Assembly: GCA_950295325.1 (NCBI GenBank)
Contig: OX485807.1
Span: 32,273,666-32,337,665, forward strand
Source of the DNA: Polytrichum commune
Taxonomy: Eukaryota; Streptophyta; Polytrichopsida; Polytrichales; Polytrichaceae
Length of the DNA stretch: 64,000 bases
Reading direction: 5' to 3'
Shown here: piece by piece, positions 4,156 to 62,854 of the stretch
How the letters are laid out: each line of letters begins with the position of its first letter
How positions within the stretch are numbered: position 1 is the first letter of the stretch
Notes under the pieces: model-generated
Database searches by the model: none
What the model was told of the DNA's origin: nothing
The model's input: the letters and a program-made list of their open reading frames with translations, nothing else
Program-made: the position numbers and the translations under genes

Positions 4156-4324
4156 TTACTATACTTGATTTCAAACAATGTGCACATTGTGTTTATCGTA
4201 TAGGGTCATATGTAAAGCATATCATTTACCGATCCACTTCTCGAGCTTGACACGTGGCTCTTGGCAATGACCCAACATGTCAACATGCAATGTATTTACA
4301 CCCCTCCCCTCTTCCACAATAAGC

Positions 4325-17560: not shown

Positions 17561-17642
17561 ATGTGGAGAACTAGATAGAACCAATGTGACAATCTATAAT
17601 ATGCCATCTGTCAACTAGTATGGTATAGCTCGTGAGCATAAG

Positions 17643-23045: not shown

Positions 23046-23410
23046 ACGTTATATATTATTAACTCCACATCTTTTTTTTCATGGAGCTTGGTTTTGCTAC
23101 ATTGCACCTTGGGCATGTTAACCTTGAGTAAGCATTGGTGAGGTTTTCTTGGGTATTTGACATGCCGGGTGCATGTGTCGCTTCCAAATTTGGAACCACC
23201 ACCAAAATCGTTATCATCTTTGTTGGAATCCTCGTTGCCTTCATCTTCACATTCTTCACAACTCTTTTTGAAGCTCTTAAAAGTGCTATTCATCTCGTAA
23301 TTTTTGGATCATCCATACAAATAACCATGCATTCATGGTCTCATTAGATTCCAAGTTGTTCAATCACTCTACTTTCTACCTAATAATTAACCAAAGGTGT
23401 CCAAACAACC

Positions 23411-23816
23411 ACACTACATATTGTATTTACTGTCACCAATTATGTTTGTCTTGCTCAATACTATTTGTAAACCGCATGTGTAGTGTCACCAACACTAATT
23501 GGCAAATATAACATTACTTGTCATTCCTTGCCTCTTTTTTTCTTCCTCTTTTTCCACATTATAAATTTACAATGTTGCAATTTCTGTCACTTACTAAGTG
23601 ATTTTCACCCAAATTTCAATCATCCATGACAATGTTTCATGACAAAATTGTTAGGATACAGAATGTACCAAACTTTATTTCAATAATTGGCGTGGATTCA
23701 TCGAAATTCCAATCATCCATGAGAGTACTTGTAAACTTATTAAGAAAAAGTGTCATTAGAAAGTTACCACAGTGACATAAAATACCATATGGCACTAAAT
23801 ACAATGTTTAGTGTAG
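23411..23816. mobile_element. CACTAAAT-type MITE, copy 3
   Basis: About 406 bp. The left end is a degraded CACTACATATTGTATTTA and the right end is CACTAAATACAATGTTTAGTG followed by TA. Compared with copies 1 and 2 it carries an extra internal segment (around TTGTTAGGATACAGAATGT) also present in copy 4, so copies 3 and 4 form a subfamily. No ORF was seen. Confidence 0.6.
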
Positions 23817-23819
23817 CAA

Positions 23820-24950
23820 CAAGTCCCAACATAATGCCAAATATTGGATAATTGGATCTGCTATGATGCTCGAATATTGCCCTTCATGATCCTTCTGACA
23901 CCGTGCCCAATCCAAGGTTCTGTTAATCCACTCTTCAATGGTTTATGAAAATTCAACAATATTGATATGCAATGGCTCTCACATTTTGATTTGGAACCTG
24001 ACCTCCTCTACATACACCGCAAACTCATAGTTGTAGTAACAATTCTAGCTATCATACACATTAGAAACTAAAAAATAACATTCCAACGAGACACATTTTC
24101 CATCCACGAGGCAGCATTCTTTCACAAAGCCCAATATTTGTTTTCCACTCATTGTTATGCTCCTTTTGGCAACACCTAAATTTCATCTCTAAATGTCAAC
24201 AAGTGCGTGCAACAATGCAACTAAATAAGCCATTGTTAGAAGCTACTAATCATATGCGACAAGAAGTACATAATGCGGCAAGATTTTGGCCCATCATAGT
24301 GCTAGTGTAAGGACTTAAGAACGCTTTAAGAAGAGCACCAACTGTGGCCAATCACAATTGCTAATCTAGGATCTATCTCCTCAGTGAGGCGGTGTAAGAA
24401 GTGGTCAACAAATGGGGACCAACACCTTCATTTAATAGAAGATTCCCACCTGCAATAAGGCTCATCTTACGATGATTTTTACCTAAAAATAAAATGTTAA
24501 TGCCCCCCTCCCAAAAAACAAAAAGTTCATAGTAAAAGGCATATTTCTTATAAAAACTTTGCAAATTTCTGTAGGTTGCATATGGTTTTTTTAATTGATT
24601 TTTAATTTAAGAAAATTAAGGCATCAACATGGTGCAAAGACATGGCAACTATATCCAGAAAACATCCTTACTGTACACACAACGGAAGTGTCTATTAGAT
24701 CACAACTAAGAAACAAAACTACAATGCTTTTGATGGAAGAATATATACTCAGCTATTCACTTTAAGGCGTCTTAAACAGTACTGCAGGTTCTTGATCCCT
24801 ATTCACAGGTAGAATGTTGACAACTAGGTAGTGCTTGAAGAATATAAGGGACTAAATCAATACACCACACTTCCACTGCTTGCAAACACATGGACGCTTG
24901 CAACAACTCCATTAGAATTTCACCAACACCTCCAACAAGTATATACTCAA
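23820..24950. other. Intergenic DNA 3' of SLY1 copy A
   Basis: No recognisable gene. Short frames only. This side of the boundary at 24951 no longer matches the corresponding flank of SLY1 copy B closely. Confidence 0.6.
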
Positions 24951-27011
24951 AATGTCAACATTTCTCCCTACCTTTCTCAGTACATGCCAAAATATGGCGT
25001 CTTCAATTGCAGACTTACATAGTGACTGAGCATCCTTCTTCCACTACATTCCTACATTTACTATAAGATGAGCTCGGCCACTGCTAAAAAAAATGTAACA
25101 AACGCTACCAAACTAAGGGCTGGGGGTGATGAACAAAGGAGGTATTTTACAATCACCCCTCCATGGCTAAGAGGAAGGCGTCGCCGTCGTTGAACCCCCC
25201 ACCCCCATCTTCCTTCCCAGCACGGCCAGCTGCTCTATGAACTCCCTTCCTGATAGAATTTCTGTAGCCCCATATATGATGTTCTTGACTGGTTGTTGCC
25301 GCTGCCCAAATTCTTGTAGACTTCCGTATTCCAAATAGTTCCCTCCCCCTATCATGAACACTATGGCCTCCTTGAACGGCCCTTTTGACACGCTCCCTGC
25401 TCCCGCTGACCCCTTCGGTGCTCGTGGGTCCAATACCAAATATGTCTCCGTCTCCGGGATTGCCTTCGCCTCCATCAGGGCTTCCACAACCCGTGTCAGA
25501 GCTGCTTGCCTTCCTCCTGACAGCAAGTTCTTCACCCCCGCCGTGATGGAGCTCAGCGCCTGTTCGTAAAATCTCTCTCCCCACACCCCCAGGCTCCTGC
25601 TCGCAGCCTGGGCGGATGACAAAGATACGTTCAGAGACTTTATTCTCTTCACATACAAAAACGCCGAAAGGTCTACTTCCGACTCTCGGAGCGCTGCTTC
25701 CACAGCCTCCACTTCTGCAGGAGGGCTGCTCTCCACTGCTAGCAGGTAAACCACGGCTAGCCGCAGTTTGTCCTCCTTCGTTCCCTTTCCTTTCAGTTGA
25801 GTCAGAAGACCTCTTTCCACGCTGCCCTTCGACAGCATCTCGTCTTCCATGGAGCAGAAACTATCCAGAGAACGCTCTTTGATCTCCCCTAGCAGAGACG
25901 TCGCTATGTTTGTATGCTTATCGATCATGCGTTTCCTCTCCGTCAGCTCTGGCAACGAGTTTACGGCACTCATCAAATGCTTTGTGTTACCCATCAACTC
26001 ATTTTCGTCGAAATCTTCTGCCGTGCCCCCGGTTCTCTTGTTTACTTCCTCTATGTCTTGCTTGTACCTGGACACCCAGAACCGCCTCTTAAGTAAGCAC
26101 TACAGGAAATACATAACAATGTCACAATTCACAACCCTACCGCAAGCCGTGGACGATATGCACAAGACCAGGAGGAAACAGAGCCAGTCCCACACACACA
26201 CACACAACCTCTCATCTCAACAGCACGTTGGCCTGCAATGCAAATGTACCCTGTGCTGTGCTTAAAATATCAATTGCAAAGTGCTCAGCATGTTTGATTA
26301 GGTACTTATCACATCCACATAGCCCCACACTTGTGGCACCATAGCCCTCCTTCCCAGTGCACATGGACACCTACAGTGCTTTAATCCCCAACTCACCTGG
26401 TCAACTGGACTTCCACTTCTTGAGCTACAGCTGGGAACAGAGCATTTCCGTTGGCTACCCAAAACGAATCCCCGTCGTCCAGTTCGTATGCTTTCCCGCC
26501 ACTCTTTCCCTTCAGCCCAACCGTGCCTCCTTCTCCTTGTACATTCACACGATTTAACTTCATATTCAAAACATCATGTACCAGTGGCCGATAGCTCCAA
26601 ACGTGCTGTACTGCCACAGAGAGTTCAAAGTTCCGATCGAATAGGCAAAGCACGGGTCGTTGAAACGATGTTCCCATATGCCCTGCCTCTGTGAAAAGGT
26701 TGTTTCGTGAAACTAGGTGGTCCCGAATCCGTGAATCTAGCATACCTGCCACCATCTCTGCCGGTCCACCTCTGCCCAGAGACAACCACTTCCATCAGGT
26801 GAGCTACAGAATGTCGTCCATCCAGGTTAGACCCCAATCACACATGGCCATTGCAAAAGGGCTCCATGCCATGACCTCATTCTTACAGCCATCTTTCACA
26901 CACGTAAGTAATACGCCGATATACAGGCTTGCAAGTATACAACCTTTAGGCTTTTAAATTCACCTCACTTCAAATCAACATGCCTCCATAAATCCAGGTA
27001 ACCTCACCATC
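24951..27011 (-). repeat. Inverted repeat arm A: high-identity part of the SLY1 duplication
   Basis: This tract matches 38780-40840 in reverse complement at about 98 percent over exons 3 and 4, with intron 3 somewhat lower, by hand comparison. Similarity drops sharply at both borders: in intron 2 at 27011, and past the gene at 24951. Outside it the copies are clearly more diverged. See the finding on gene conversion. Confidence 0.85.
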
Positions 27012-28968
27012 GCAACTCTGTTACCTCAACCCCACTTCTCTGCGGTCCATAAGTTGATACACAAACTAGTGTGTACACACTGAGCACAAAATAAGCAGGC
27101 ACCAAACTGGAAAACATAAAATACCTAGCACATCGAATTACGGGAACAACACCCAATGTTGCAAGGACAGAGAAGAGTCCATTCACAATATTCTCCACCA
27201 CAGCTTCCACATCTTGGTCTTGTGCAGCAGGATCGTTCAGCTGCACATATGTAAGGGGCTGGCCCAGAGAGAACATCCCATTCTCCAGGGTTATGAACTC
27301 CAGATATTGGTCATAAACCTTTGCAATCTTCTGCAGACAATCCGTCTTTAATGTCCCTGTTGCAAGCTCCTCTAGCAGAGGCCGAGGAAGGGATGAAGAA
27401 AAGTTCAAGTGGAGAGCTTCATAGATGCCCCGAGATGCATCCATCACAATTCTTTGAATGTTAGTTTGCAGCGACTGGACGAAGTATATGGCTGGAACAT
27501 CCGAAATGTTCTGCCTCTCATTCTCAAGCATCAGGTACAATGTAATGCCATGCTTGCGCAGGTCAGGGACACGAATCAGAGGGGAGAGAATGTCCCGGCA
27601 GAATTTGTCCAGAATGAGGACCTTGTATACTTCTTCGTCTGCTGTGCCCCCACTCATCACCGGCTGATTCAGATTCAACATCCGAACCACCGCATCTGCA
27701 CCAGTCCATGAAAGATCACAACACCCATGAATAAGCACAGTAGAATTGATCTACTCCGTTGGAACAGAACAAAGGACCCATTTAAATTGAAGTGTAAGGG
27801 ATAAGTCCAGGAATGTCTGGAAAGACACACACTTGGATCCTATCACCTTGCCCACTCTCGTGCAAGAAAGCTTGCATTTCACCACACCATGAGTTCAGAG
27901 TCTGTACAGGTGCATAATATGAACTCCGTGCTGTCTTTACCTTGAAAACATTGAATTCGAATTCTACGGACTTTGGTAGGAGAATATTCACAGAATTTAC
28001 TCCACCAGTGTGAAGCTCAACGCCAACACTAGCTAGTATTCATTCAGCTAGTAGACCAAAACCAATCCAAGAGTAAGCCTACTCTCAGATATTGACGCCC
28101 ATTTCTTACTCCAAGCCAGTTGCTAAGAAATCTTAAACCAGTTTAAAGTAAGAGGATGATAACTTAGCAATGACCAATCCATCACTTTCTGAAGAGTATC
28201 ATCTGTCAACACAATCAGATGCACAGCATCCAAAATGACAATGTGTGTAACAATCGAGAGATGTAACACTAAATTGCGCAAGCACATTCAACCAGAGGAA
28301 GATCCTAGCCATATGTTGTCATCCGCCTTGTTGCTCAATAATCCCTCATTCAATTCTGCATTAACCCTGCTTAGCTGCCCTGATCTCCACACATTCACCT
28401 TCTCTTCCACGACCATGCATGCCATCTTTCTTCCCCTCCCACGTGCAACACCATACACACATAAAGTGCATGGCATTTCCATAGAAATTCACCATGTACC
28501 CGGCTTCCCACTCCGTAAACCCTAGACCTAAACAATTCCCTTCCGTCTTCCACATCCCTCCCACACACTGCTCCACTCCAAAAACCAAAACCACGCCATC
28601 GCCCCTGCTTAACCCTAACCTCGTCTTCAAACCAGCCCAGAACCCACCACCTTCACCTACAAACTCCTTCCAGAATCGTCCCCTGCATTTACCAAAGGAA
28701 CATACACATGTATGTGCATACGATTTCCTAAATTGACATCCAGCTCCTGGAAAGCTCCGTGTGCTCCATGTGTTCCATGTTGCTCCGGATTCTTCACATA
28801 GCAGCCGCATTTCGAGCTCTCCCAAAAGATTGGCATGTGAGGGCAGGTCAAAGAGAGAAAAGGAGTGAGGAGGAGAATGGAGCTGGATGTGAGAATGGAT
28901 GGAAAAAGGGGTAGATCTGGGATGATTGAAGCCATACCAATTTGTTTTTGACGAAGTGAGAGCGCCAT
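25167..28968 (-). CDS. SLY1: SLY1, Sec1/Munc18-family protein for ER-Golgi SNARE fusion, copy A
   Basis: SLY1 binds the Sed5/SYP31-type syntaxin and promotes SNARE assembly in ER-Golgi traffic (family knowledge). I read four coding exons: 28968-28938, 27695-27125, 26771-26397 and 26067-25167, with lengths 31, 571, 375 and 901. All have GT-AG borders and join in phase to 625 codons plus TAG, about the length of Arabidopsis SLY1. The start gives MALSLRQKQIDAVVRMLN. Diagnostic blocks include VPDLRKHGITLYL, LNFSSSLPR, RPVLCLFDRNFELSVAVQH, LTERKRMIDKHTNIATSLL, LKGKGTKEDKLRLAVVYLL, ITAGVKNLL and FKEAIVFMIGGGNYLEYGSL. The SM fold spans the whole chain; no signal peptide or membrane segment was seen. 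No frameshift or stop was found, so the copy is potentially functional. A CT-rich tract (about 29037-29058) lies upstream of the ATG. It is paralogous to 36961-40623 on the other strand. Confidence 0.96.
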
Positions 28969-29560
28969 GATTGTCTCCCACCGCCGCGCAGCGATCGCCT
29001 TGCTTCCCCGAGCTTGTTGCCACTCCTAAGTGGCTCTTTCTCTCTCTCTCTCTTCCTGCCTTGGTTGCGATCCTTCAAAGGGAAACCTATGCATCAGCAG
29101 CAACGAGGAATCGATGGAACCGAGACCGTCTGACAGCCTCTGCGCAACCCATCTGCGCCCGATCCTGCCCGCTGCTCCTGTGTCGTGCCAGCAACCGAGC
29201 TCCCCTCCTGCGCTCGGAGCTCCAAGAGCTTCATCACCCTTCTCGCTCTTCCTCTCCTCGCCACCTCGGTTTAGATTTACGAGTAATCCGTAGATTTGGC
29301 GTGATGGGGCTGAACATCTGGTGTTCTGGTTTGGTAGATGCGTGACATGGCACGTGTTCACGGCCTGATTGGGTGGGTGAGGTGGTATCATACACTCCTC
29401 CTTTCCTTTTCTTTTCAGCCTGTCCCTTTCTTTTTCCACTCTTCCCCCTTCTGTTTTTTTCTTTTCGGTCTTTACCTTCTTTTCTTTTGCTGGAGTTGTT
29501 AGCACCCGCAATATTTATCCAGTGGTTTGTGTAGTTCAATCCTGCATTTATCTCACAAAG
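28969..29560 (-). promoter_or_regulatory. Upstream region of SLY1 copy A
   Basis: It is GC-richer than the spacer beyond it. A CT run on the plus strand at about 29037-29058 reads as GA repeats on the gene's strand. The bases just before the ATG (GCAAGGCGATCGCTG and GACAATC) partly match those before copy B (GCAAGGTAATCGCTG and GGCAATC), so the duplication extended at least into the leader. Farther upstream, similarity is lost. No TATA box can be assigned. Confidence 0.5.
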
Positions 29561-30885
29561 GCTACTGCACTCCACCACTCTAAGAAATTAGCTAGTTTGA
29601 AAGCACTCTGATGCACTTTCAGTCCCATCAGCCTTTTGGCTCCTAAACTTTAAAATGAATTTCATTTCATTCAAGGGTTTCAAGCCGATTTATTGCAGCA
29701 CTAAGTTAGGCGACTGTGGAAAATGTGACTTTGGGAACTGTGAATTTATATGATGTGTATAAGTGGATTTTTAGTTTCAAATTTTTCTTTAAAAGATGAG
29801 CATTGGCTACAATCATTGGAGTGACGAAGCCACATGTGGATGATTATACAAATTTTCAAACGTGTATATATTAATCCTAAAGTTAGCAATTGCATCCAAT
29901 CATTATGATTGAGAGGGTTTTTTTGACAATTTCATCCCAGGGTGGACTCTTCATATCATGCACGAACTAACATGAGCTTAGAAAGGGGTATTATCTGAGG
30001 CATTAGTGCACACAATATACACAAGGAGGAGGTATTTCTTTTCTTTGGTGCGTGCATTTGAAAAGGCTATTAATTTTTTTGAAGTAAAGATAGATTTACA
30101 AAAGGAGCCCTAAGGTTTAGAGATCAAATTGAATGTTAATGTGCTAGTTTCATCTAATTTACTTAATTATGATGCTCATCCAAATGACGTGTATTTTAAG
30201 ATCCAATAGTTATGAGTTACATCCTATGGATGAGAAAATGTCCATGACTTTCTCATTGGAAAGTGACAATGAATTGAATGTGTAATAAATGCCTACTTAT
30301 TTCATGATCTATAGTTTGTATATGTAGTGGAGCCATTCATCATATTAAACTAAAAAACTTATTACAAACACATGAGTCCATTTTCTAGCCTACCATTAGC
30401 AAGCATACACTTTGGTTTTTTTCTCTATGAATTCCTCATATATAGGGGGTTCCATTTCATAATCACCCACGCATGACATTTAGGCATCCAATGATGAGTC
30501 CACCCCCTAGAGATTTCATCCATCAAAGAACATGAAAATTTCATCCACCCCCTAGAATATTTATTTCTTTATTTATTAAAATCAAGAGTTAGAGATAGAT
30601 TGCCAAATTCAAAATCATGGTTGTGTATTGTGTGCTTGAGATTGATCATTTTGACAATGCGGATAATTTTTGAAAAATGAAATAGACAAATTGGATAGTG
30701 ATCAAAAATCACATGATTTTCTAAATAATATAATTGTGTAGGTGAACATATAAATAAATAAATTTGTACTAAGATTAACAAACTGTTCAACACTCATATC
30801 CTTAAAAATAAGGAAATACATTAAAACTAAAGAAACAAAAAAAGTGTCATAGTCGTTTAGAGTGGGTTTCTTGGGCAACTAAGAT
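29560..30885. other. Spacer DNA between the SLY1 copies, first part
   Basis: No gene recognised. Bases of about 29565-29700 are a dispersed repeat also found, diverged, at about 47025-47160; shared strings are CACTCCA, AGCCTTTTGGCT and TCATTTCATTCAA-like CTTCATTCAA. The rest is AT-rich with no long frame. Confidence 0.55.
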
Positions 30886-30888
30886 TTA

Positions 30889-31387
30889 GGGCCACTTCAC
30901 ACACAAGACTGAGAGCCCGTGACCATTACATTTCAAGCACTCTCATTGGTGGAAAAGGCGGAGCCTATCCAAGTTCGCTTCACACTATGCTTGAGGGACC
31001 AACAGAGTATGTGAATGCCGGATGGATGTAAAGTTTGCATGGATTCTTACATGGCATCAAATGGGATCATGTTTCATGGTCACTTGGGTTATTTTCAAAC
31101 ACCACCTCTTGGAGGTAGGCCTAACACAAAACCAAGAGACCATGGTACTTTGAACGCTCACAACCATTAATTTATTCTATTTTACCATGTGTGAGGACCC
31201 ACATGAATAGAAATTCATTGAAATAGCATTTGGTTGAGAGCCGGTCACATATGACTTCACACTACACTTGAGGGTCCATGACCACACTACATGATTTTGG
31301 AGGTGTCTTGGGACGGCCTTTGGACACTTTCTTTTGGGCTCTCACAATTTCATGGTCACGGCTCTTGGCTCATGTGTGAAGTGGCCC
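30889..31387. mobile_element. MITE with GGGCCACTTCACAC inverted ends, copy A
   Basis: 499 bp flanked by TA on both sides. The ends are GGGCCACTTCACACA and, at the right, the complement TGTGTGAAGTGGCCC; the inverted similarity extends inward about 35 bp through GAGCC and GTGACC. It has no ORF. Copies B (45009-45501) and C (52469-52977) are in the opposite orientation. The TA flanks fit a Tc1/mariner-like target duplication, but I cannot assign the superfamily firmly. Confidence 0.8.
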
Positions 31388-31389
31388 TA

Positions 31390-33390
31390 CGTTTTAAGGT
31401 GAGAGGGGGTTTGGTTTCAACAATATCCTAATTCATACACATGTGTTTTTTGTGCTAGTAAATGTCAGAAGTGCAATCATAATGTGGCCACTTGTGATGA
31501 TATTCTAAGAATGATAAACATACCTCATTATTTTAATTAGAGCAAAGTCAACAAGTTCAAACATGCTTAATACTACAAAAACATTCTTCATTTGGGTTGA
31601 AGTGTTTGGTTACTATAAAAATAATGATTGGAGCATGGCTAATACTAGCCTTCATATGGCTACATGCAGTTGGACCCTAACCAATCCCGAAATTAGTTGT
31701 CATTCTTCAATTAGACGTAGCATTATTTATCTTCCCTTGTGCCCAGAGTTCGGGAAGTTTTTGAAGCCTTAGTGGCTAATTGCCGGTAGTTGCTACGAAG
31801 GGTCGGATTTTTTTCCAATTTACATCGGCAAGAGCCGGTCTTTTGTAAAATCAATCGGCCAATTGCCTATATTTTCATATTTTCATTGGCCAATACCCGA
31901 TTAAATGGAATTCATATCGGCACTAATTGTTTAAAAAATGTATGAAAAGTTATTAGAAATAATTTCTTAGTCCTCGCATTGGGCGGAGCACTCTGTGGAG
32001 CAGCGGAGGATGGAGGCGCAGTTCGCAGAGCAAGTTGCCGTTTGTCTTTGAAGCCCTAACATGCATCCCTCGATACATGTCTACACTCAAATATACATGC
32101 TCATGACCTGGAGGGTATCGGCCAGTATTTGAATATTTCTTCCGGCTAAAATCCAGTAACTCACAAGAAGAATCGGTTACATTTCCGGGATATTTTCTGG
32201 TCCGTCGGCTAATTGCCGGAGGATTGAAATTACAGTCGGATTGCCATCCGATGGTTGGAAATTTGGACCTGCCATGAGGGGAAATCCATCGGCCGATAAT
32301 GAACTAGCCGTCGGTTTTCCCCGACCATTGCTTGTGCCTCTATTTTTTCTTATTAAGTACCCCATGTCAACATCCCCCATAGGGAATGCAACACATAAGA
32401 ACTAGGATTTTGGAAGCACGTGTATGAGGTCCCGGCCCCATTGAACATATATAAAGGGCCAAGGAATGTTATGCACTTGTAACGGGGCTCCTCATACATC
32501 CATGAAATAAAGCACGGAACCTTCACATTAGAATTCCAGAAACGTTTCACATGACCTTAAGAAATTATGATTCTTTCACTTGCATCACATTACAACATAA
32601 ATAGTTTATCTACAATTCTCATTACAAATACTCTTAAATACTTTATCTATTTATGTCCTCTCAATCCCCCCTACTTGAACATACATGGCAACTATGATTG
32701 TTGTGTTCTCTCTAGGACATACCCACTATCTAGACCGTAGTTGTCCCTGGTCTTGGAGTTGCTCTCTTTATCGCAGGGTGTGTAGAGTCACAAGACATGT
32801 ACATGTTCCTCCCCCCAACAACATCACCGACCACCAGTGTGTCACCCATCCTAACGAAGTGCTACTCAACATGGGAGCAAGCATGCATGGATCTAACACT
32901 GATGGATCCATTTAATGTAGTGATGACATCACCATCCTCAACAACCCCAATTTTATGGCACCATCACAATTGTAATGTGGTTCTTCAATCCCACCTTTCC
33001 AAATTTGACGTATTCAATTTCCCATTGTTTATATTTAGAAATTTGATATTATAAGATAGGAATATGAATTGTTCCTCCCTTCTTTCTTTTTTGCAATATG
33101 TAGCGATTCCCTCGTTTTTGTGTGTCTTGCAATGCTCCACAAAATTAACACGAGAGTTGAACTCCCTAGACACCAAGGTTGCTTTGATTTTTTACGTGCA
33201 TAGTATGTATGCTACTAAAGTTGCTTTTGAATGCCATTTGGAGGTACTTGTGAGTGGCACCTCTCTCAATTGCATAGGACCCCAATACACTCATGTTCCC
33301 AAAATATTTCATGATAAGAATGCTACATATATCAATGTTGTAGGCCCATGTACCAATTGTCACGTTAGCTTCAAGATACTCGAGTCCAAT
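31390..33390. other. Spacer DNA, including a TCGGC/GCCGG-rich block
   Basis: Between about 31770 and 32340 the strings GGCTAATTGCCGG (at about 31773 and 32208) and many TCGGC/GCCGA words recur, suggesting a decayed repeat or retroelement piece. A 136-codon plus-strand frame (33064-33474) has no family I recognise, and its end lies inside the MITE that begins at 33394. No gene is supported. Confidence 0.45.
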
Positions 33391-33393
33391 CTT

Positions 33394-33805
33394 AAGGTAG
33401 GGGTGGTAATTTCCGTCCAAATTTCAGATGTGCCTAGTTGGGATGCTGAAACTATTTTTTTTTTAAAATTTTGAGCGCTCCGCAAAGTTGGTGCAAGAGC
33501 AACTATGAAAAAATCAAAATTTTCCAGCATGTTTATGATTTCCTACAAAATTTTAAAGGAAACCTTGTAGAGTGACCAACACTCGCACATAGGGTACGCG
33601 TGGTATATTCACAGGGTGGATTTCTAAAACCGACCGTTGGCAGCATTAAACCGACCGCTAGCAACCAATGAAATGATGGCAGTGCTATGAACGGTAAAAG
33701 CACATTGATAGGTGCTTTTGTAAACCCAGGTAAAAGCACCTAGATAGGTGCTTCCGACATAGGGGTCGACTTTAGGACCCGCACGGAAATTGCCACCCCT
33801 ACCTT
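33394..33805. mobile_element. MITE with AGGTAGGGGTGG inverted ends
   Basis: About 410 bp. The left end AAGGTAGGGGTGGTAATTT is mirrored at the right by AAATTGCCACCCCTACCTT, an inverted match of about 23 bp with one mismatch. A TTA lies at both edges (33392-33394 and 33804-33806), as expected of a 3 bp PIF/Harbinger-type target duplication. The interior holds two small hairpins built on AAAAGCAC and GGTGCTTTT (33695-33753). It inserted into an open frame that starts at 33064. Confidence 0.7.
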
Positions 33806-33809
33806 ACTT

Positions 33810-35900
33810 GTTCCAAAGTGCATGCTCCCCAACATTGTGTGCATTCCAAATTGCTTTGAAGCAAGGCATCGGTTATACGCATAATGTTACAACGTAGAAG
33901 GTCGCCGAAGCTGTGTTTCATCGATTCAAAGCCAAATAATTACCACCGATTAGATTCTCCGTGCCTTTGCACATAGATTTAACCTTGGGCAAACACACAA
34001 ACTTACCCAACGCCATGATTGCATTTAGGGTGAGTTTCCATGTAGGCCGCTCACCCAACAAATTCTAGTGTGAATAAGGACAAACCCGCCCAAATGTAGA
34101 GGGAATCTAGTGGAGGTAGGGTTCATATGTGCCAACTAGCTACTCCCATCTTCTCAAATCCAGGCCCACCTATTAACCTCCTCCTACCGGTTACCAAGGA
34201 TGGAGTTCTAGACAATCATTGATGCTCTCGAATCTTCAACTGGTCTTAATCCTTTGGTGAACGATACTTGTAGATCAAAGATTATTCAGTGGGTGCATTG
34301 AAATCTAGAGGGCCGTGTCCACAACCCTCCACATTCTAGCAAACCATTAGAATGTGGTTGGATGGTGACTTGTGCTTAACTACACCTCTGACCCGCTGCT
34401 ATCTAGAATCTAGGGGGCGAACGGCCTACATAGAAACTCACCCTTACACACACATTTAACTACAATTGACGTTTGGATAAGTGGCGCAAACAATTGCCAC
34501 ATGCATCCGCAAACCCTAGAGGAAGCGGCCACCCGGCGTGCACACCGCTATTATAGACCCCCCACCACAAAACAATCCCACAACCCAATTAAAGGATTGG
34601 ATTCTCAAAGCAATTAGTTCCCAACACCACGTGGGTGAGGGAGACCCCCATGATGACAACAAGTCATAAGGTGAGGCGCAAATGGAATCTGAGCCATTGG
34701 AGGAGCCCCCTAAGATGGACGACATCTAGTTGAGGTGGGGGTCTTGTCCCACATCACTGAGATGTTGTGAACGCCTCTCGTGGGGTCCGGGGCTAGGAAG
34801 AGCTTGGCCGTCGATTGCGATGTGATAAATCTAAATGCTCCCATACTTTTGGCTTCTCTCTCCCTCAGGTAGAGCTAAAAAAACTTCACGTTGGATGAAA
34901 TCCCCACCTCCATCCACTCATGAATCTTGGATGAAAACTTTCAAACTAAGTCCTTCCTTAAAAGGACTTGCGGAGGAGATGATGCCAACAGGGGTTCAAA
35001 CTCCTACCTCTTTTTTCTAAAAGGTGGAACCAAGGGTACTAGCCAGTAACTTCAAGCCCCTTTTGATGACCGACCTTGAAATGAAATGAAATGAGTTCTC
35101 CGGGGAACTCCATTGGAAACTTAAGGAACCCTCTAGGAACCTTCAAAATCCCACACAAATGCTCTCATACGATGGGATGAACAATTAACCCCTTCATCTT
35201 GCAAACATTGATTTTTCATCCGTGAAATTTTCATTCATCGGAAGTTTTTTTCGGGTTGCCCGAGTAGTTTCATATTAAATCATTGAATTGAACTATCATG
35301 TACAATTATTATGGATATGGATTCACTAGAAGGGTATATGATTGTGCATCTTTCTTGTATTTCAAGTGGTTATAGTTGACTCCCTTTCCCAATTTCCACA
35401 TATTGGTGTTCGTGTTGTAAATCTCTACCATCTTCCCAACATAAGAACCATCCATGCCAATTGGACTGGTTCAAGAGTCACCTTGTATAATTATGTTTTT
35501 TTTTTCAATTTTTGGCATTCCCTAGTTTGCTCCTAGTCACACATCAAGTTGCGGTCTCCATATACCCAACGTTTATGATAATATAGTTTTAAAAAGTTGC
35601 ATACGCTTCCACAACCTTGCCAATGAGTGTTGTTGCCAAAGCATTGTTGTTGTTTCGAGTCATGCCCATCCAAAGCTAATTCTTGGTGGTCCTACACACC
35701 ATAGGGCTTAAGAAATTAGCATTGTGTTATTAAATAACAAATTCAAATTGATAATGTAAGTAGCTTGTAAACTATATATCATATAAAAATACTTAATAGG
35801 TGTATGCCATTCAATTGACACTTCATCTTTGTTTATGGGATTGCACGACTTTCCATGTCCAAAACTTATCCTTAACACATTGGCTTGAATTGGCGACCAA
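33810..35900. other. Spacer DNA between the SLY1 copies, middle part
   Basis: No gene recognised. A GGTTCAAACTCC string near 34994-35005 resembles a polymerase III B box, but no second copy or tRNA fold was found. The remainder is ordinary AT-rich DNA with short frames. Confidence 0.5.
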
Positions 35901-35904
35901 TGAG

Positions 35905-35957
35905 ATGTCTTAGAATGCAATGGTCGTGGGCCTTCAATCTCGTGTGTGAAGTGGCCC
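35905..35957. mobile_element. Terminal fragment of a GGGCCACTTCACAC MITE
   Basis: The string from CCAATGAGA through CTCGTGTGTGAAGTGGCCC matches the right ends of copies B and C. The other end is missing, so this is a remnant. The same TTAGAATGCAATGGTC variant occurs at about 44993-45008 beside copy B. Confidence 0.6.
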
Positions 35958-36164
35958 TTATAAGTGTGTGAGTTTCTGCATTATATAAAACAATACCGCA
36001 ATTATGAGATGGAATGCACCGGCCCTAGTGTATCCCACTACCAAAAGGAAAAAGACATAACATTATTTAGGTGAGTGACCATGTTGAGTGGGACCGGGAA
36101 CATGTCATACAAGATGCTAGAATTATACCTGACGGATGCTTGTCAATAAATAAATTAAGCCTGA

Positions 36165-36330
36165 AACTACACTAAATATGATATTTAGTGTTTGGTACAC
36201 TAAATACAAACGCATGCACTAAATATCAACAACCGTATGAAAGTTAGTAACACTAAATGTAAAATCAAACACTAAATGTCAACTATGGTAATATATGGAA
36301 GTTACATGTCTGGATTTAGTGTTGGTAAGG
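36165..36330. repeat. Cluster of CACTAAAT / ATTTAGTG motifs
   Basis: At least seven CACTAAAT-type octamers in both orientations occur in about 160 bp, opening with the perfect inverted ACACTAAATAT and ATATTTAGTGT. This differs from the five MITE copies, in which the motif is only terminal. It may be a subterminal-repeat region or a rearranged MITE end. Confidence 0.55.
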
Positions 36331-36556
36331 ATATGAGAGAAAAAGTAACAATGTTAACAGGAGAATTCTAGCAAATCTTCTAGCATATCTTCTAACAATG
36401 ATTGTCAAAGGATTGAAAATTAGTGTTGAGCAGGGTAGGGTGGTAACAACATTAAATATAATCAAGTGTAGTGAGATTTGGATGAAACACGGTTAGTGAA
36501 TATTATTAGAATGGAATGGCTGATAGCAGCTGAATATGTTAAGGAAGCTGAGGAGA

Positions 36557-36597
36557 GAAAGAAAAGAAAAGAAAAGAAAAGAAAAGAAAAGAAAAGC
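36557..36597 (+). repeat. (GAAAA)n microsatellite
   Basis: About eight GAAAA units in a row, roughly 360 bases upstream of the SLY1 copy B start codon. It makes the overlapping short frames here low-complexity and not credible as genes. Confidence 0.9.
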
Positions 36598-36599
36598 AT

Positions 36600-36960
36600 G
36601 GCGGCAGCATTTGTTCATGTCCAATCAACCAATAAGAGTCGGATACTTTGCCACGAGTGGAATCTACGAAACACAACTCCCCAGATCTACCCAATACCAC
36701 CACAATCTACCAACTTCCTGTAAATCTAAGATGGCCTTCCCCTTTCAACGTACGAGAGGAGGAAGAGACGGAGAAGAACCTCGAAGGCAAGCTCTTCAAT
36801 CAAGTCAAGCCTCGGTGCAGGGCAGGGTGGCGCAGATTGGGATGCTGCCAGACGATCACGGATTCATCGATGTGTGTAAGAAATTTGATCTTAGGTGATG
36901 TGTGGGGCTGGTGCATTTCCGTTTGAGGGGTGGTGAGCAAGGTAATCGCTGCTGGCAATC
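36600..36960 (+). promoter_or_regulatory. Probable promoter/leader of SLY1 copy B
   Basis: A moderately GC-rich stretch between the GAAAA array and the ATG. The last 35 bases before the ATG are partly shared with copy A. A frame of 92-120 codons overlaps it but shows no recognisable protein. Transcription start and TATA box cannot be placed. Confidence 0.45.
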
Positions 36961-39900
36961 ATGGCACTCTCACTTCGTCAGAAACAGATGGGTATGGCTT
37001 CTTAGCTTTGCTCCAGATCTGCTCCTTTTCCATCCAGCTCACAATTATTTTTTCTTTTTCCTGTCCTCCCATGTAATCCCTCGATAGCCGCCGAAATGCA
37101 ATCTCTGTGAAGAATGCGTAACAACATAAGAGCGCTGGGAGTTTTTTTGGAGCTGGGTTTTGCTTTGCTTTGGCAATTCGCTTCGGGTCCACGTGGCTCT
37201 ATGAAATACAGGCTAGGATTCAAAACGAATACGTGTAGAGCACAACGAGGGTGCGATTTGAAGGAGAAAAAGATTCAGCAGGCACAATGCCATGATGTAT
37301 TATCGGACAGTTTGGTGTAGGATGTGGAAGATAGAGCTGAATTGGTTAGGTTTAGGGTTTAATTTCAGGAACAGGCCACAATTGGTGGTGTTTTGCATAC
37401 GAGGCTCCATGCATGAGCATGGGAGAGAAGATGAATGTGTGGGGGATCAGGGCAGCCAAGTGGAATATTGGACGTGGGATTATTGGTGCAGCAATTTATG
37501 TATAGTAGCCTTGGCTAGGATCATCCTCTGCTCCTGGACGCTGGTCTCAGTCTTGAAGGTGCTTCGGAGTTTAGGTTTGAGCAATGGCGTAGCGCTCGAG
37601 AAGTACATTGTCAATTTGGAGTGCGTGCAGTCCATTTTGTTGACAAGGATCGTCTTCAAAAGATGGTGGGGTTGGTTAGTGGAGTGGAGGAGGATCTCTG
37701 GTCCTATCTTCAGATTTTTCATAGCGATATCCTCAGAATGGCCATGTCTGGTTGTTGAATGCTGCAACATCACTGTTAAGCTTTAGCTCTTGCTGCAGGG
37801 AGTGATTCTGTGCAAATTCTCCAGAAAATGAGTTTACTGTAATAGTGGAAATACAGCACATTTTACAAGTTGTAACTTGGGATAGACTCCAGATTCATTG
37901 CAGGGGTGAAGTGATTAGAAACAGAAGCTCTTACAGATGTAGCGTGCATGAGTTCATGGTTTGACATTTTTGTAATGAAGTGTCACACTGGACCTGGACT
38001 GAGTGTCCCATGCACCTCAGTTTATGTGAGTCTTGGATTTTATTGCTGTGTAAAATATATCAAATTCCACTACGCTGATTCATGGGCGTGGCAATCTTTC
38101 ATGGACTGGTGCAGATGCGGTGGTTCGGATGCTGAATCTGAATCAGCCGGTGATGAGTGGGGGCACAGCAGACGAAGAAGTCTACAAGGTCCTCATTCTG
38201 GACAAATTCTGCCGGGACATTCTCTCCCCTCTGATTCGAGTCCCTGACCTGCGCAAACATGGCATTACATTGTACCTGATGCTGGAGAACGAGAGGCAGA
38301 ATATTTCGGACGTGCCAGCCATTTATTTTGTCCAACCACTGCAAACCAACATTCAAAGAATTGTGATGGATGCATCTTGGGGAATCTATGATGCTCTTAA
38401 CTTGAACTTTACCTCGTCCCTTCCTCGGCCTATGCTGGAGGAGCTCGCGACAGGGGCACTGAAGACGGATTGTTTGCAGAAGATTGCCAAGGTTTATGAC
38501 CAGTATCTGGAGTTCATAACTCTGGACAATGGGATGTTCTCTCTGGGCCAGCCCCTAACATACGTGCAGCTGAATGATCCAGCTGCACAAGACCAAGATG
38601 TGGAAGCTGTGGTGGAGAATATTGTGAATGGACTCTTCTCTGTCCTTGCAACATTGGGTGTTGTCCCCGTTATTCGCTGTGAAAGGTGTGTTGCATTTTC
38701 CAGTTTTGCATTAACTCATTTTGTGCACACTAGTTTGAGGCTTGCTATTAAATTATGGAGCACAGAGAAGTTGGATTGTGATGGTGAGGTTACCTGGATT
38801 TATGGAGGCATGTTGATTTGAAGTGAGGTGAATTTAAAAGCCTAAAGGTTGTATACTTGCAAGCCTGTATATCGGCGTATTACTTACGTGTGTGAAAGAT
38901 GGCTGTAAGAATGAGGTCATGGCATGGAGCCCTTTTGCAATGGCCATGTGTAATTGGGATCTAACCTGGATGGACGACATTCTGTAGCTCACCTGATGGA
39001 AGTGGTTGTCTCTGGGCAGAGGTGGACCGGCAGAGATGGTGGCAGGTATGCTAGATTCACGGATTCGGGACCACCTAGTTTCACGCAACAACCTTTTTAC
39101 AGAGGCAGGGCACATGGGAATATCGTTTCAACGACCCGTGCTTTGCCTATTCGATCGGAACTTTGAACTCTCTGTGGCAGTACAGCACGTTTGGAGCTAT
39201 CGGCCACTGGTACATGATGTTTTGAATATGAAGTTAAATCGTGTGAATGTACAAGGAGAAGGAGGCACGGTTGGGCTGAAGGGAAAGAGTGGCGGGAAAG
39301 CATATGAACTGGACGACGGGGATTCATTTTGGGTAGCCAACGGAAATGCTCTGTTCCCAGCTGTAGCTCAAGAAGTGGAAGTCCAGTTGACCAGGTGAGT
39401 TGGGGATTGAAGCAGTGTGGGTGTCCATGTGCACTGGGAAGCAGGGCTATGGTGCCACAAGTGTGGGGCTATGTGGATCTGATAAGTACCTAATTAAACA
39501 TGCTGAGCACTTCGCAATTAATATTTTAAGCACAGCACAGGGTACATTTGCATTGCAGGCCAACATGCTGTTGAGACAAGAGGTTGTTCTGTGTGTGTGG
39601 GACTGGCTCTGTTTCCTCCTGGCCTTGTGCATATCATCCAGGGCTTGCGGTAGGGTTGCGAATTGTGACATTGTTATGTATTTCCTGTAGTGCTTACTTG
39701 AGAGGCGGTTCTGGGTGTCCAGGTACAAGCAAGACATAGAGGAAGTAAACAAGAGAACCGGGGGCACGGCAGAAGATTTCGACGAAAATGAGTTGATGGG
39801 TAACACAAAGCATTTGATGAGTGCCGTAAACTCGTTGCCAGAGCTGACGGAGAGGAAACGCATGATTGATAAGCATACAAACATAGCGACGTCTCTGCTA

Positions 39901-40623
39901 GGGGAGATCAAAGAGCGTTCTCTGGATAGTTTCTGCTCCATGGAAGACGAGATGCTGTCGAAGGGCAGCGTGGAAAGAGGTCTCCTGACTCAATTGAAAG
40001 GAAAGGGAACGAAGGAGGACAAACTGCGGCTAGCCGTGGTGTACCTGCTAGCAGTGGAGAGCAGCCCTCCTGCAGAAGTGGAGGCTGTGGAAGCAGCGCT
40101 CCGAGAGTCGGAAGTGGACCTTTCGTCGTTTTTGTATGTGAAGAGAATAAAGTCTCTGAACGTATCTTTGTCATCCGCCCAGGCTGCGAGCAGGAGCCTG
40201 GGGGTGTGGGGGGAGAGATTTTACGAACAGGCGCTGAGCTCCATCACAGCGGGGGTGAAGAACTTGCTGTCAGGAGGAAGGCAAGCAGCTCTGACACGGG
40301 TTGTGGAAGCCCTGATGGAGGCGAAGGCAATCCCGGAGACGGAGACATATTTGGTATTGGACCCACGAGCACCGAAGGGGTCAGCGGGAGCAGGGAGCGT
40401 GTCAAAAGGGCCATTCAAGGAGGCCATAGTGTTCATGATAGGGGGAGGGAACTACTTGGAATACGGAAGTCTACAAGAATTTGGGCAGCGGCAACAACCG
40501 GCCAAGAACATAATATATGGGGCAACAGAAATCCTATCAGGAAGGGAGTTCATAGAGCAGCTGGCCGTGCTGGGAAGGAAGATGGGGGTGGGGGGTTCAA
40601 CGATGGCGACGCCTTCCTCTTAG
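36961..40623 (+). CDS. SLY1: SLY1, Sec1/Munc18-family protein for ER-Golgi SNARE fusion, copy B
   Basis: Paralogue of the minus-strand gene at 25167-28968, with the same inferred role in syntaxin-5-type SNARE assembly. I read exons 36961-36991, 38115-38685, 39020-39394 and 39723-40623, identical in length to copy A, joining in phase to 625 codons plus TAG. The start gives MALSLRQKQMDAVVRMLN. By hand alignment the proteins differ at 14 positions (A to B): I10M, S85P, R99W, E103D, H106N, S110T, L117M, T125A, E148D, A200E, T235I, A461S, V586A and T620M. Ten of the 14 fall in the first 200 residues. R99W changes an arginine in a DASR motif that Arabidopsis SLY1 also has. No disabling change was seen, so both copies look functional; expression is unknown. 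Confidence 0.96.
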
Positions 40624-40840
40624 CCATGGAGGGGTGATTGTAAAATACCTCCTTTGTTCATCACCCCCAGCCCTTAGTTTGGTAGCGTTTGTTACATTTT
40701 TTTTTAGCAGTGGCCGAGCTCATCTTCTAGTAAATGTAGGAATGTAGTGGAAGAAGGATGCTCGGTCACTATGTAAGTCTGCAATTGAAGACGCCATATT
40801 TTGGCATGTACTGAGAAAGGTAGGGAGAAATGTTGACATT
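38780..40840 (+). repeat. Inverted repeat arm B: high-identity part of the SLY1 duplication
   Basis: Partner of 24951-27011. It starts inside intron 2 at the shared GATGGTGAGGTTACCTGG and ends about 217 bases after the stop codon at the shared TGTTGACATT. The two arms have the same length of 2061 bases by my coordinates, allowing for small compensating indels. Confidence 0.85.
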
Positions 40841-42050
40841 ATGAGTATATTCTCATTGGAGTTGTTGAAAGCTTTGTAGGTGCCATTTGTCTACATTGGG
40901 AGAAGGGTATAATCTTGCACTCCACCATATTCTCCTGGTCAAGTTTCTGAAACATGTCGATTTTCCTTGTATGAAATAGGTCAGGAAGCTACAGTGCTTC
41001 TGAATATGGTGAGTGTACTCCACTCTGAAATGTGATTTTACTGAGTTTGGTAATTTAGAAAATAAGGTGAAGCATCCAAGTTTTTACTGTGGAATAAGCA
41101 AACTTAGCATAACAGTTTGAGGTGTTCAGTTTGACATAGCAATATTACAGTTGTATTGAAACTCGTTTAATTGCAAGTGAGCAACTTTAGAAATGTAGGT
41201 TATCACTGGGTTGCTTTGAAATTAATGAATTCTCAATTTTATCTTGTGGACAAGATCTCTAGAAACTAATTTCACTTTCATTGTTATGTGCAGAAAAATT
41301 GATATTAAATGGCATCCTATATATTGAATCATTTTGTTTACTCCAAAGTGGAATTGAGATGACTCAAGTTTGAGTATTGGGAAATACTAAGTTGGTGATT
41401 TTGGCTCGTCAAATAATCTATAGGTGGTCAGAGTCCAGTGGTTGATATTTGCATGTAACATCATAAGTTCTTCCTTATAAGAATTAGTACAAAAGAAATT
41501 CTGGTATTAAAAACCTGGAATTTGTGGTTTCAGTCTTACGTTGCGGTGAACCTGCTGCAGTTCCGAGTAAGAGCACCAATACATTTGTTACAATGAGCAA
41601 TCAAATACACTTTCTGTATCCTGTGAAACCTTGAGATACCGAATCAGTCATGCTTGTAAGACCGCAATGATATCAGTCAATTTTTGAGGTCAATCTTCAT
41701 CCTGTGAGTTGGCCCCACAGCACCAGTTTACCCACAACTTGGACTGGTTTTGGAAGAGACCAAGGTATCAGCGGGTTTCCAAATCGCACACCTTGTGACA
41801 TGGGAATGTTTGAGTGTCTTCTCAAGAGATTGTGCACCACCTGCACTCATTCACAAGGCACAATGAGTGGTGCACAATGGAGTGTATATAGAAGGGCTCG
41901 GTGTTTATATACACTCCATTGGGTAAGCCATTTTTTTTGGTGAGGCATGCAATTGAAAAGGGGGTTTCAATTGGAGTGACAGGACAAGGTTGTGAAAACA
42001 CAGCAGAGCTTCTCTAAGCCTTAGTTTGCCTCAGCTTCTTATTAGTGTTA
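40841..42050. other. Intergenic DNA 3' of SLY1 copy B
   Basis: No gene recognised. A small inverted match lies at about 41878-41920, where GAGTGTATATA reappears as TATATACACTC; it could form a hairpin. The remainder is AT-rich. Confidence 0.55.
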
Positions 42051-44795: not shown

Positions 44796-45008
44796 CCTGC
44801 ACATGGTTTGCTGGAATTTGCGCCATGGAGGTAGGCAAATTTCGGGAGACCATGAAACAATATTTATACTTTGTCATATAAGAATCCATGTAGACAATTC
44901 AATCATCATAATTTCTTTGAACCCTTAGGCCTTAATCTTCTAGCGTGAAGTAATCTTGGACTAGTTTCGGCCTTTTCGATTAATGAGTGATGTTAGAATG
45001 CAATGGTC

Positions 45009-45501
45009 ATGAGCCAAGAGCTGTGACCATGAAATTGTGACAACCCAAAAGAAAGTGCCCAAAGGCCATCCCAAGACACTTCCAAAATCATTTAATGTGG
45101 TCACAAATCCTCAAGTGTAGTGTGAAGTCACATGTGACCGGTCCCTCAACCAAATGCTATTTCAATGAATTCCATTCACGTAGGACCACACACATGATAA
45201 ACTAGAATAAATCAACAGTTGTGAGCGTTCGAAGTGCCATAATCTCCCGGTTTTGTGTTAGGCCTACCTCCAAGAGGCAGTTCTCGAAAATAGTCCAAGC
45301 GACCATGAAACATGATCCATTCGATGCCATGTAGGAATCCATGTAGACCTCACGTCCATCTTGCATTCCATCCACCTACTCCGTTGGTCCCTCGAGCGTA
45401 GTGTGAAGCGAAGTTGGACCGGCTCCGCCTTTTGCCACCAATGAGAGTGCTTGAAGTGTAATAATGGTCACGGGCTCTCAGTCTCGTGTGTGAAGTGGCC
45501 C
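45009..45501. mobile_element. MITE with GGGCCACTTCACAC inverted ends, copy B
   Basis: Its body matches copies A and C (AATTCCATTCACG region, TCCACCAATGAGAGTGCTTGAAG-like right part). The right end is intact (TGTGTGAAGTGGCCC). The left end has lost the outer GGGCCACTTCACAC and joins a second right-end-like fragment at about 44940-45008. It is therefore truncated or rearranged. No ORF was seen. Confidence 0.7.
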
Positions 45502-48100
45502 TTGGGACAACGTAACTTCAAAGCTCAAACGGCAGGAATAGAATCACACTTTTCGGCATTCCGGCTGCCTGCATAAAAGCAGGGCCCGCTTTCTAATTAA
45601 CTCAACAGGTGGCTGTGAAGCCATGCTCCGTGTCCACGGGAGGCATTTGGTAAGGCATTATTTTTGGCATGTTCTAGAAGCCCCAAGTGGACATGGGAGC
45701 GTAAAGTGCTCCCACATAGAGGTACACACAATGACTAACTTGTGACTTTTTACTAAGCCGGCGGGCCCCGCCTTGGGTGGGCCCCGGGACACGGCGGTTG
45801 CTAGGGCTCTTTTTAGGCCCCGGTCAATTTTGTGGCGGACATCTCAACACCAAGTTCGGTCAGGTGGAAAAAGTACGAGCCAAGAGCTTGTGCCTCTTTA
45901 CCAATTTCCTTCCCCAAAAAACACTCCCTACATCATCTTTTTGATTTTGTGTGGCACTAAAATTTGATGTGCCATGTTAATTAGAGTGGCATGGCCACGA
46001 TTTGTCATGTAACAGCAACAATTGTTTCGTATCATGTTTCTTTTTCTAGTTACCAACGATGATGATTGTAAGATCATTTGTGCGAGGTGAGGATGAATAG
46101 CGTGGACCTGGGCTAATTTTACACAAAGTTGTTTTTTTTGGGCATCCCGTGTCCCAAACGTTTCAGTTGTCACAATTTTTAGTTTTTGATTTGAAGTCCC
46201 AAAACCAAAGATTTGAGAATAGTTTACGTCTCGGACATAAAGTCAAGTAAACTTTGCGTCCCGAAGTTGTTCTTGTTCCCCCCCCCCCCCTACTTGTTCA
46301 TGTATTCTTGATAGTGAAGGTACAATATTTGAAGTTTTAAAATATATGTTTCAATAACTCCCTAAACACTAGGGTGTGGAAAATCACCAGTGGCGTGGAC
46401 CACACTACTTATCTCAAATGTATAGATTTATGTTTTAGTAATGAAGTGAAGCTAGGTCGACCATTGTTGTGGACCAATCTTGGTTAAATTATTAGCTCCA
46501 ACTGCACAATTTGTAAAGATGTTGGTGAGTGGTCTCCACATTCAACCATGCAAAAGGCATCATGGGGTTTATCTCGTGATGGGAAACCCATGACAACGCA
46601 ACAACATCAAAAACCGCATTAGATGAAAAGAGGAGGCTTCTCTTGCTAAAGAGTGGAATTCTTTTCATCTTTTAGGGAAGAAACTAGATTACCTCCACCT
46701 CAAAGGTTTCTCAAATAGGAATGTGAATTGTAATTGAAGCAACCATTGATACCGCCACAATGCAAGATCATTATTGCTTTCCACACCTCGACCCATAGAC
46801 TTGTAATTGAAATTGGATGGGGGTCGACTATCCCTATCTCTTGAGATAATAGACAACACCACTTTTGCTTTTGTAATGCTCAAGGCACACGTTGTGTTGG
46901 AGTGTCCTTTATACAACCCCATTTAAGATGAGCTTCCATCATTATTTGAGAATGTAGTATTAGGGAACCCCAAGTCCGTCTTTCAATCAGCTCATCAAGT
47001 TGACATTAGTCTCTACCTCACGCAGGTTACCCCACTCCACTCTAAGGAATCAACCAGTTTGAAACCATCCAATGTACTTTCAATCCCATTAGCCTTTTGG
47101 CTTCCCATACTCTAAAATCAACTTCACTTCATTCAATCCTCAGGATCGATTGTTTCCAGACTCCAACCAAGGTCCAAAAGCGCCATTCTTCTTCACAACC
47201 ATTTGTTCTCTAAAACAACATTTTCTTTTCCCACACTACCAGCACACACAACCTGCTTCAACAGACACTGCAACACGTATCATGCACACAACTGCACTGA
47301 ACCTATTGTGCAAACTAAATGTGAAAAATGGGTCGCACAAGACATCACAGTATGAGGTGGCCATACTATCAGTTGCGATCGATGTTGCATGTGCTCAGTC
47401 ATTTTGGGTCAATCTCAGTTGCAGAGGCAATACCAAAACCTCGTGAATCGTGTTTCAGGTGAAAGCTGTGAAGACATTCCATGGGCACTCTGAAGGAAAA
47501 CACGATGAAGAGGTGACAAAAACACAAGTGCAATCTGTCAGTTCATGAATATGATGCGCACCACAACATCAACAGACAAATATACAATCACTTCGTGCAC
47601 CTGGAACTTGGCGTGGTGACAGAACATTCACGTTGTTAATTATACGGCAACAATTAAGGTTTCACCCAATTTCTGGCTCTGCATATGTGACACACAACAT
47701 TCACGTAGAACGTCAAATGCAGTTCATTGTCGATAGTTTGCAAAAGCAACATGTGTTTGCAATTTCCACACATGCACGTCAACATGAAGGAGATGAACAT
47801 TTTGGCATGAGACAAGAGTAAACAGATGCAAATGGGGGAAAGAACGACTCTTATTCATGATTGAAATGTCATTGACACATGTGTCGTAGTTCTCCCATTC
47901 TGAACCTATTGAATTCCCTCGACCCACTATGGGCACAATCTGCATCGCCAAAGAAATCCACTCCTCGAACTTTGCGTCACAATCCTGATCGGAGGCCGAG
48001 TCCAACTCCTCCGAGGACCACCTCCCCTGCGGGGGTTGGCCCTGACATGAGCATGTTCATGTTAGACCCCTCGGTTATAGGGGTTATAGGGTTTTGACCC
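45502..48100. other. Intergenic DNA, no gene seen
   Basis: A GC-rich patch lies at about 45760-45810 and a C run at about 46279-46290. The dispersed repeat at about 47025-47160 is a diverged copy of 29565-29700. Short frames of up to 98 codons are not recognisable. Confidence 0.55.
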
Positions 48101-51120: not shown

Positions 51121-51122
51121 CA

Positions 51123-51516
51123 CTACACTAAATATTGTATTTAGTGTCACCAAATCCTTTTGTCTTGCTTGTTACTAATTGTAAACCGCTTGTGTAGTGT
51201 CACCGACAACAAATGTAAAACTAACTCTTTTTTGGTCATTTCTTGTATTTGGGCATTATACATTTACAATGTTGCAATTACTATCACTTACTAAGTGATT
51301 TTTCATCCAAACTTCAACCATCCATGACAATATCTCACTACAAAATTGTTAGGATGCAAAATATACCAAACTTTGCTTTAGCAATTGGCATGGATTTCAT
51401 CCAAATTTCAATCATCCATGACAATACTCATAAACTTATACATAAGAGGTGTCATCAGACAAGTTACCACAATGACATAAAATATCATATGACACTAATT
51501 ACAATATTTTATGTAG
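51123..51516. mobile_element. CACTAAAT-type MITE, copy 4
   Basis: The left end CACTACACTAAATATTGTA followed by TTTAGTGTCACC is intact; the right end, CACTAATTACAATATTTTATG then TA, is degraded. It shares with copy 3 the internal AAAATTGTTAGGATGCA segment. No ORF was seen. Confidence 0.65.
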
Positions 51517-51544
51517 TCATAGTACATTGCTTATCCCATTTAGT

Positions 51545-52465: not shown

Positions 52466-52468
52466 TTA

Positions 52469-52977
52469 GGGCCACCTTCACACATGAACCAAGAGCCGTG
52501 ACCATGAAATTGTGAGAGCCCCCAAAAAAGTGTCCAAAGGTTGTCCCAAGACACCTCCAAAATCATGTAGTGTGATCACGGAGCCTCAAGTGTAGTGTGA
52601 AGCCATATGTGACTGGTCCCTCAACCAAATGCTATTTCAATGAATTTCTATTCATGAGGGTCCTCACACATGATAAAATAGAATAAATCAACAGTTGTGA
52701 GCGTTCCGAGTGCCATGGTCTCCCGGTTTTGTGTTAGGCCTACCTCCAAGAAATGGTTTTTCAAAATAGTCAAAATGACCATGAAACATGGTCCATTCGA
52801 TGCCATGTAGGAATCCATGTGGACTTTACATCCATCTTCCATTCACGTACTCCGTTGGTCCCTCAAGCGTAGTGTGAAGCGAACTTGGACCGGCTCCGCC
52901 TTTTCCACCAATGAGAGTGCTTGAAGTGGAATGGTCACGGGCTCTCAGTCTCGTGTGTGAAGTGGCCACTGTGGCCC
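52469..52977. mobile_element. MITE with GGGCCACTTCACAC inverted ends, copy C
   Basis: 509 bp flanked by TA on each side. The left end is GGGCCACCTTCACACATGA. The right end contains TGTGTGAAGTGGCCACTGTGGCCC, carrying an extra short duplication of GTGGCC. It has the same orientation as copy B and is inverted relative to copy A. The interior is over 400 bp of non-coding sequence alignable with the others. Confidence 0.8.
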
Positions 52978-62849: not shown

Positions 62850-62854
62850 CCATC

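Follow-up and report, generated by a model that had tools for sequence, protein, structure and literature searches.

Two linked SLY1 genes in head-to-head orientation

The window, the whole 64,000-nucleotide stretch of Polytrichum commune DNA analysed here, contains two intact SLY1 genes lying head to head as an inverted pair, each encoding 625 amino acids. Their exon models are predictions that combine open frames with splice sites and homology. The exons measure 31, 571, 375 and 901 bases in both copies, all introns are bounded by GT..AG, and the two proteins differ at 14 of 625 residues.

36961-40623, + strand: SLY1 copy A (arm A), with GT..AG splice sites and an open frame free of internal stops
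36961-36991, 38115-38685, 39020-39394 and 39723-40623, + strand: exons of copy A, from splice sites and open frame
25167-28968, - strand: SLY1 copy B (arm B), from open frame and splice sites
28968-28938, 27695-27125, 26771-26397 and 26067-25167, - strand: exons of copy B, from splice sites and open frame
28969-36960, no strand: spacer between the two SLY1 start codons, about 8 kb, from the exon coordinates

Copy A matches the Pfam Sec1 family with 390.2 bits over residues 35-605. For copy B, the best PDB match is 1mqs (Sly1; 363.7 bits, E 1.6e-107), which we take to be the yeast protein and which aligns over nearly the full length. The N-terminal domain of SCFD1 (1y9j, Sec1 family domain containing protein 1; 120.2 bits, E 9.4e-34) aligns with residues 1-142. 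Among the 15 PDB matches listed for copy B, the best chain from the other SM families is 4cca with 65.9 bits, Vps45 reaches 61.2 bits and no chain is named Vps33. Judged by these similarities, we assign the pair to SLY1, with a full-length Sec1 domain that resembles Sly1 more closely than it does other SM families. What the pair shares with the SLY1/SCFD1 family of Sec1/Munc18 (SM) proteins is the near full-length match to 1mqs and the match to 1y9j, while here there are two linked copies; nothing unusual was noticed in the protein itself. The name SLY1 is also used for an unrelated gibberellin gene.

Divergence between the arms changes in a step within intron 2

The two arms align as a single block (38063-40867 with 27747-24924), in which copies A and B differ at 4/31, 45/571, 6/375 and 16/901 bases of exons 1 to 4, respectively. 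The recount reproduces the figures of the initial annotation for exons 2 and 3, and corrects the one for exon 4, given there as 15/901. Intron 2 is divided at position 38780: on its left 31 of 94 aligned bases differ, with another 19 gap columns, against only 2 of 240 on its right (Fisher p 4.5e-17), where 38783-38951 (169 bases) carries no difference. In sliding windows of 60 columns that begin at 38697, 38727, 38752, 38774 and 38798, identity reads 0.58, 0.53, 0.67, 0.85 and 1.00, which is a step rather than a slope, as would follow from the abrupt left border proposed in the annotation.

The position of this border was also recovered from 1576 aligned silent or non-coding sites (38098-40845, 109 differences). 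The best single change point falls at 38779/38780 with a log-likelihood gain of 52.9, a value reached by none of 10,000 permutations, the largest of which gave 12.7, and it agrees with the border at 38780 that had been read by hand. The longest difference-free run (172 sites) starts from 38780 as well and was matched in 0 of 3000 permutations. Silent or non-coding differences number 40/1259 over 38780-40845, compared with 69/317 over 38098-38779. Homologous and collinear exon 2 sequence lies beyond the border at 38779/38780.

Both parts of the gene are under the same constraint but differ in age

Silent-site divergence by exon, a comparison suggested in the annotation, proved unequal, with dS of 0.317 for exon 2, 0.057 for exon 3 and 0.063 for exon 4, while dN/dS is 0.07, 0.06 and 0.07, respectively. 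In rounded counts, 36/137 silent sites differ in exon 2 versus 18/307 in exons 3 and 4 together (Fisher p 7e-9), and none of 20,000 codon permutations gave a result as extreme. At four-fold sites, the middle of exon 2 (15/46) also stands apart from exons 3 and 4 (10/216; p 5e-7). Intron 3 (17/328) is as divergent as exon 4 is at four-fold positions (8/149; p 1.0), which fits the neutral expectation since a reset. Thus, silent and intronic sites appear to have been reset in the tract, as well as the protein, as dS by exon and the introns show, and the two parts of the gene are under equal selection but of different age. Equal constraint together with two ages at collinear homologous positions is the pattern expected from gene conversion.

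Uneven purifying selection or mutation rate, acting without any exchange, could be invoked for the early clustering of the amino-acid changes, since 10 of the 14 fall at codons 10-200 and non-synonymous differences separate exon 2 from exons 3 and 4 (Fisher p 0.002). However, dN/dS is equal over the exons, silent sites have changed in proportion, and the step falls at a single position within an intron, so that we give this explanation next to no weight. The earlier argument that protein constraint cannot explain the tract is upheld by the same facts: dN/dS stays at 0.06-0.07 throughout, silent sites show a step and the step of intron 2 coincides with it. The accompanying statement that introns and 3' flank are as similar as the exons, or close to it, needs qualifying for intron 3, whose raw divergence (17/328) is about three times that of exon 4 (16/901), though equal to that at four-fold sites.

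A consequence is that dating the SLY1 pair from complete coding sequences would mislead: the whole-gene dS of the pair, 0.137, mixes values of about 0.5 and about 0.06 and dates neither event.

Extent and internal heterogeneity of the tract

38780-40840, + strand: converted tract in arm A, running from within intron 2 through exon 3, intron 3 and exon 4 to 217 bases past the stop
24951-27011, - strand: the same tract in arm B, positions from the alignment

Downstream of the stop codon, 2 of 216 aligned bases of the 3' UTR differ up to 40840, followed by 5 of 25 with 14 gap columns over 40841-40865, in keeping with the near-identity for about 217 bases past the stop and the subsequent falling off that had been described. 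Beyond 40867, arm-to-arm blastn gave no match at E 0.01, and the best match between the 3' flanks of the arms has E 0.063. The right edge falls where homology between the arms stops being detectable, so it does not count as a proven border of the conversion, nor as an independent one; the conversion may have extended as far as the duplicated unit reaches. Of the two sharp borders originally claimed, therefore, the left one stands, while the right one is also where detectable homology ends.

Similarity varies within the tract. Intron 3 has a higher share of differences (17/328) than either the portion of intron 2 inside the tract (2/240; Fisher p 0.004) or the 3' UTR (2/216; p 0.008), which points either to several events of different age or to some constraint on intron 2 and the 3' UTR. 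Given this heterogeneity and a right edge at the end of detectable homology, the tract need not be the product of a single event. We considered a separate later event at 38780-38951 and did not retain it: 233 of 10,000 permutations attained the corresponding change point (38951/38952) and 364 of 3000 attained the difference-free run inside the tract, so that the signal is suggestive only. GC-biased conversion was also set aside, since GC3 shows no consistent rise in the tract (0.53-0.56 in exon 2, 0.46-0.47 in exon 3 and 0.61-0.62 in exon 4).

Older homology and a possible mosaic to the left of the tract

36820-38097, + strand: old upstream homology (5' UTR, exon 1 and intron 1) in five collinear patches of 72-85% identity
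38098-38283, + strand: possible further patch of conversion, of smaller size, comprising the final 17 bases of intron 1 and the 5' part of exon 2
38284-38779, + strand: old stretch left unconverted, from the middle of exon 2 to its end and on through the first 94 bases of intron 2, with 65/238 silent or non-coding sites differing

The five upstream patches, whose collinearity was judged by eye, and the 31/94 differences with 19 gap columns at the start of intron 2 bear out the patchy alignment reported for both introns. A recent partial duplication is disfavoured, because exon 1 and intron 1 show homology that is old and extends beyond the left border.

Exon 2 itself is heterogeneous. Its codons 57-168 have a dS of 0.507 (bootstrap 95% 0.307-0.806), against 0.092 (0-0.220) for codons 11-56 and 0.054 for codons 169-194, and an identical run of 76 bases (38589-38664) lies inside the old stretch. 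The interval 38098-38278 has 4 differences in 79 silent or non-coding sites, and 9 of the final 36 aligned bases before 38098 differ. Four-fold sites also separate the middle of exon 2 (15/46) from its 5' part (2/28; p 0.012), in a comparison picked post hoc. The split between 38098-38278 and 38284-38779 was found at the mildest of three penalties and was absent at the two stricter ones, and when blocks of exon 2 were permuted, 47 of 500 rounds attained the observed value. Together, these data are only suggestive of a mosaic exon 2, with an old middle beside a younger 5' part.

The similarity of 5' exon 2 and of the 76-base run, about as close as within the main tract, would also allow the old part to be the inserted one. 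In that case the pair would be young, with a silent divergence of about 5%, and the divergent stretches (intron 1, the middle of exon 2 and the start of intron 2) would have been patched into one copy from a third, divergent SLY1 gene that has since been lost. We searched the genome (408 Mb, 64 contigs) with DNA and with protein, and found no third SLY1 copy: in each search, the two scored candidates were the two arms, which also tells against a third copy as donor for the conversion. A missing match is no proof, but exon 1, intron 1 and the 5' UTR are old too, so the patching would have had to involve several pieces or a single long one, and we consider a lost third copy very unlikely. A genome search for the Sec1 family scored 24 candidates; the six strongest of the 15 matches listed are the SLY1 arms, and the remaining nine are weaker exons on contigs C5, at 21.4 Mb (six), and C1 (three). 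In the search for an outgroup, viral contigs were scanned with the protein encoded by exon 4, and none of the 11 pattern matches was a relative.

Codons 57-168 make up a large part of domain 1 and carry 8 of the 14 amino-acid differences; likewise, 8 of the 14 fall within positions 85-148. In Sly1, Munc18 and Vps45, the N-peptide of the SNARE binds a groove on the outer face of domain 1 (PMC3693963, PMC7470827). It is tempting to speculate that selection keeps the exon 2 island distinct, the copies serving different Golgi/ER syntaxins while conversion homogenises the rest of the protein, and the 25-codon window 101-125 does have a dN/dS of 0.25, the highest among windows with dS >0.2. Against this, dN/dS over codons 57-168 is 0.06 and the rise in amino-acid changes tracks the silent rise. 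We thus regard such selection, proposed from sequence, as unlikely, and chance placement of the tracts explains the exon 2 pattern.

Probable non-allelic gene conversion between the arms

Taken together, non-allelic gene conversion between the inverted SLY1 arms is very probably the best explanation of the pattern. An old inverted duplication would have produced the two head-to-head genes, whose copies then drifted to a silent divergence of about 0.5 while their introns became barely alignable. Later, one arm would have served as homologous recombination template for the other, in an intrachromosomal conversion that replaced the last two thirds of the coding sequence, with everything between 38780 in intron 2 and the point downstream of the stop codon where homology ends. 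With inverted arms about 8 kb apart, we infer a strand-invasion repair intermediate. Since the conversion, exon 4 and intron 3 would have gained about 5% silent divergence. There may have been more than one event, and the heterogeneity of the tract (p 0.004 and 0.008) counts against conversion in its simplest form, as it does not fit a single event followed by uniform drift.

A spliced cDNA or RNA template is unlikely because the introns were retained. We also attempted to read the direction of the conversion from the 14 residue differences by comparison with 1mqs and 1y9j, at least one of which agrees by eye with copy B at six sites, with copy A at three and with neither copy at four, one residue (620) lying outside the alignments; these are too few sites to indicate a direction.

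The 169 identical bases in the tract part of intron 2 could in principle come from the assembly or its polishing, with reads of one arm correcting the other. Full overwriting would, however, erase the 40/1259 differences that the tract retains in its exons and intron 3, and both reading frames are intact; an artefact of this kind is in our judgement extremely improbable, although local errors of the consensus may be present.

Gene conversion of this sort is a well-known process, of which the SLY1 pair is a fresh and clean case: a clear, measurable conversion between inverted paralogues in a moss. The titles and opening lines of abstracts in the literature found make no mention of the pair. Partial, within-gene conversion of plant duplicates is reported for poplar and willow homoeologues, in which part of a pair is likewise homogenised while the rest keeps its age (PMC9205023); those pairs stem from polyploidy, whereas the SLY1 genes of this moss are linked, inverted and about 8 kb apart. 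Inverted duplicates, or palindromes, are also described to undergo conversion from arm to arm, for example on Y chromosomes, where inverted arms on one chromosome exchange sequence as well (PMC3403216). In contrast to those palindromes, the SLY1 arms are about one gene long and homogenised in part only. Two further papers describe homologous recombination in the moss Physcomitrella as unusually efficient (PMC3729371, PMC4990234).

Other repeats and open frames

Several repeats accompany the pair. A repeat of about 500 bases is present in three copies that are 86-90% alike (30888-31389, 45008-45502 and 52467-52967), with a further 63-base piece at 35896-35958; it seems to be bounded by inverted repeats, which would suit a non-autonomous DNA transposon, and the spacer of the SLY1 pair contains one of the copies. 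Another, dispersed repeat (about 325-415 bases) occurs as five direct copies, pairwise 66-82% alike, at 3831-4156, 17641-17996, 23408-23822, 51122-51517 and 62483-62856. A direct repeat of about 420 bases in two neighbouring copies (7268-7689 and 7727-8146) is 74.6% alike. Long open frames overlap on both strands at 5904-6793, of 250 and 270 amino acids from stop to stop, with no Pfam match at E 0.001. Elsewhere, the assembly contains chloroplast psaA and psaB. Among the best 60 of 170 PDB matches of its PsaB, the top three are 8htu, 6l35 and 7ksq (1704.6, 1702.4 and 1700.6 bits), which are photosystem I structures of the moss Physcomitrium patens, followed by 9lut (1667.2 bits) and 7wfd (1630.3 bits); this order by itself makes a moss very probable. 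The adjoining frames of the PsaA/PsaB family, 766 and 740 amino acids long and without internal stops, lie on contig C8 (G000 C8:84758-89123), which is probably the chloroplast genome of the assembly.
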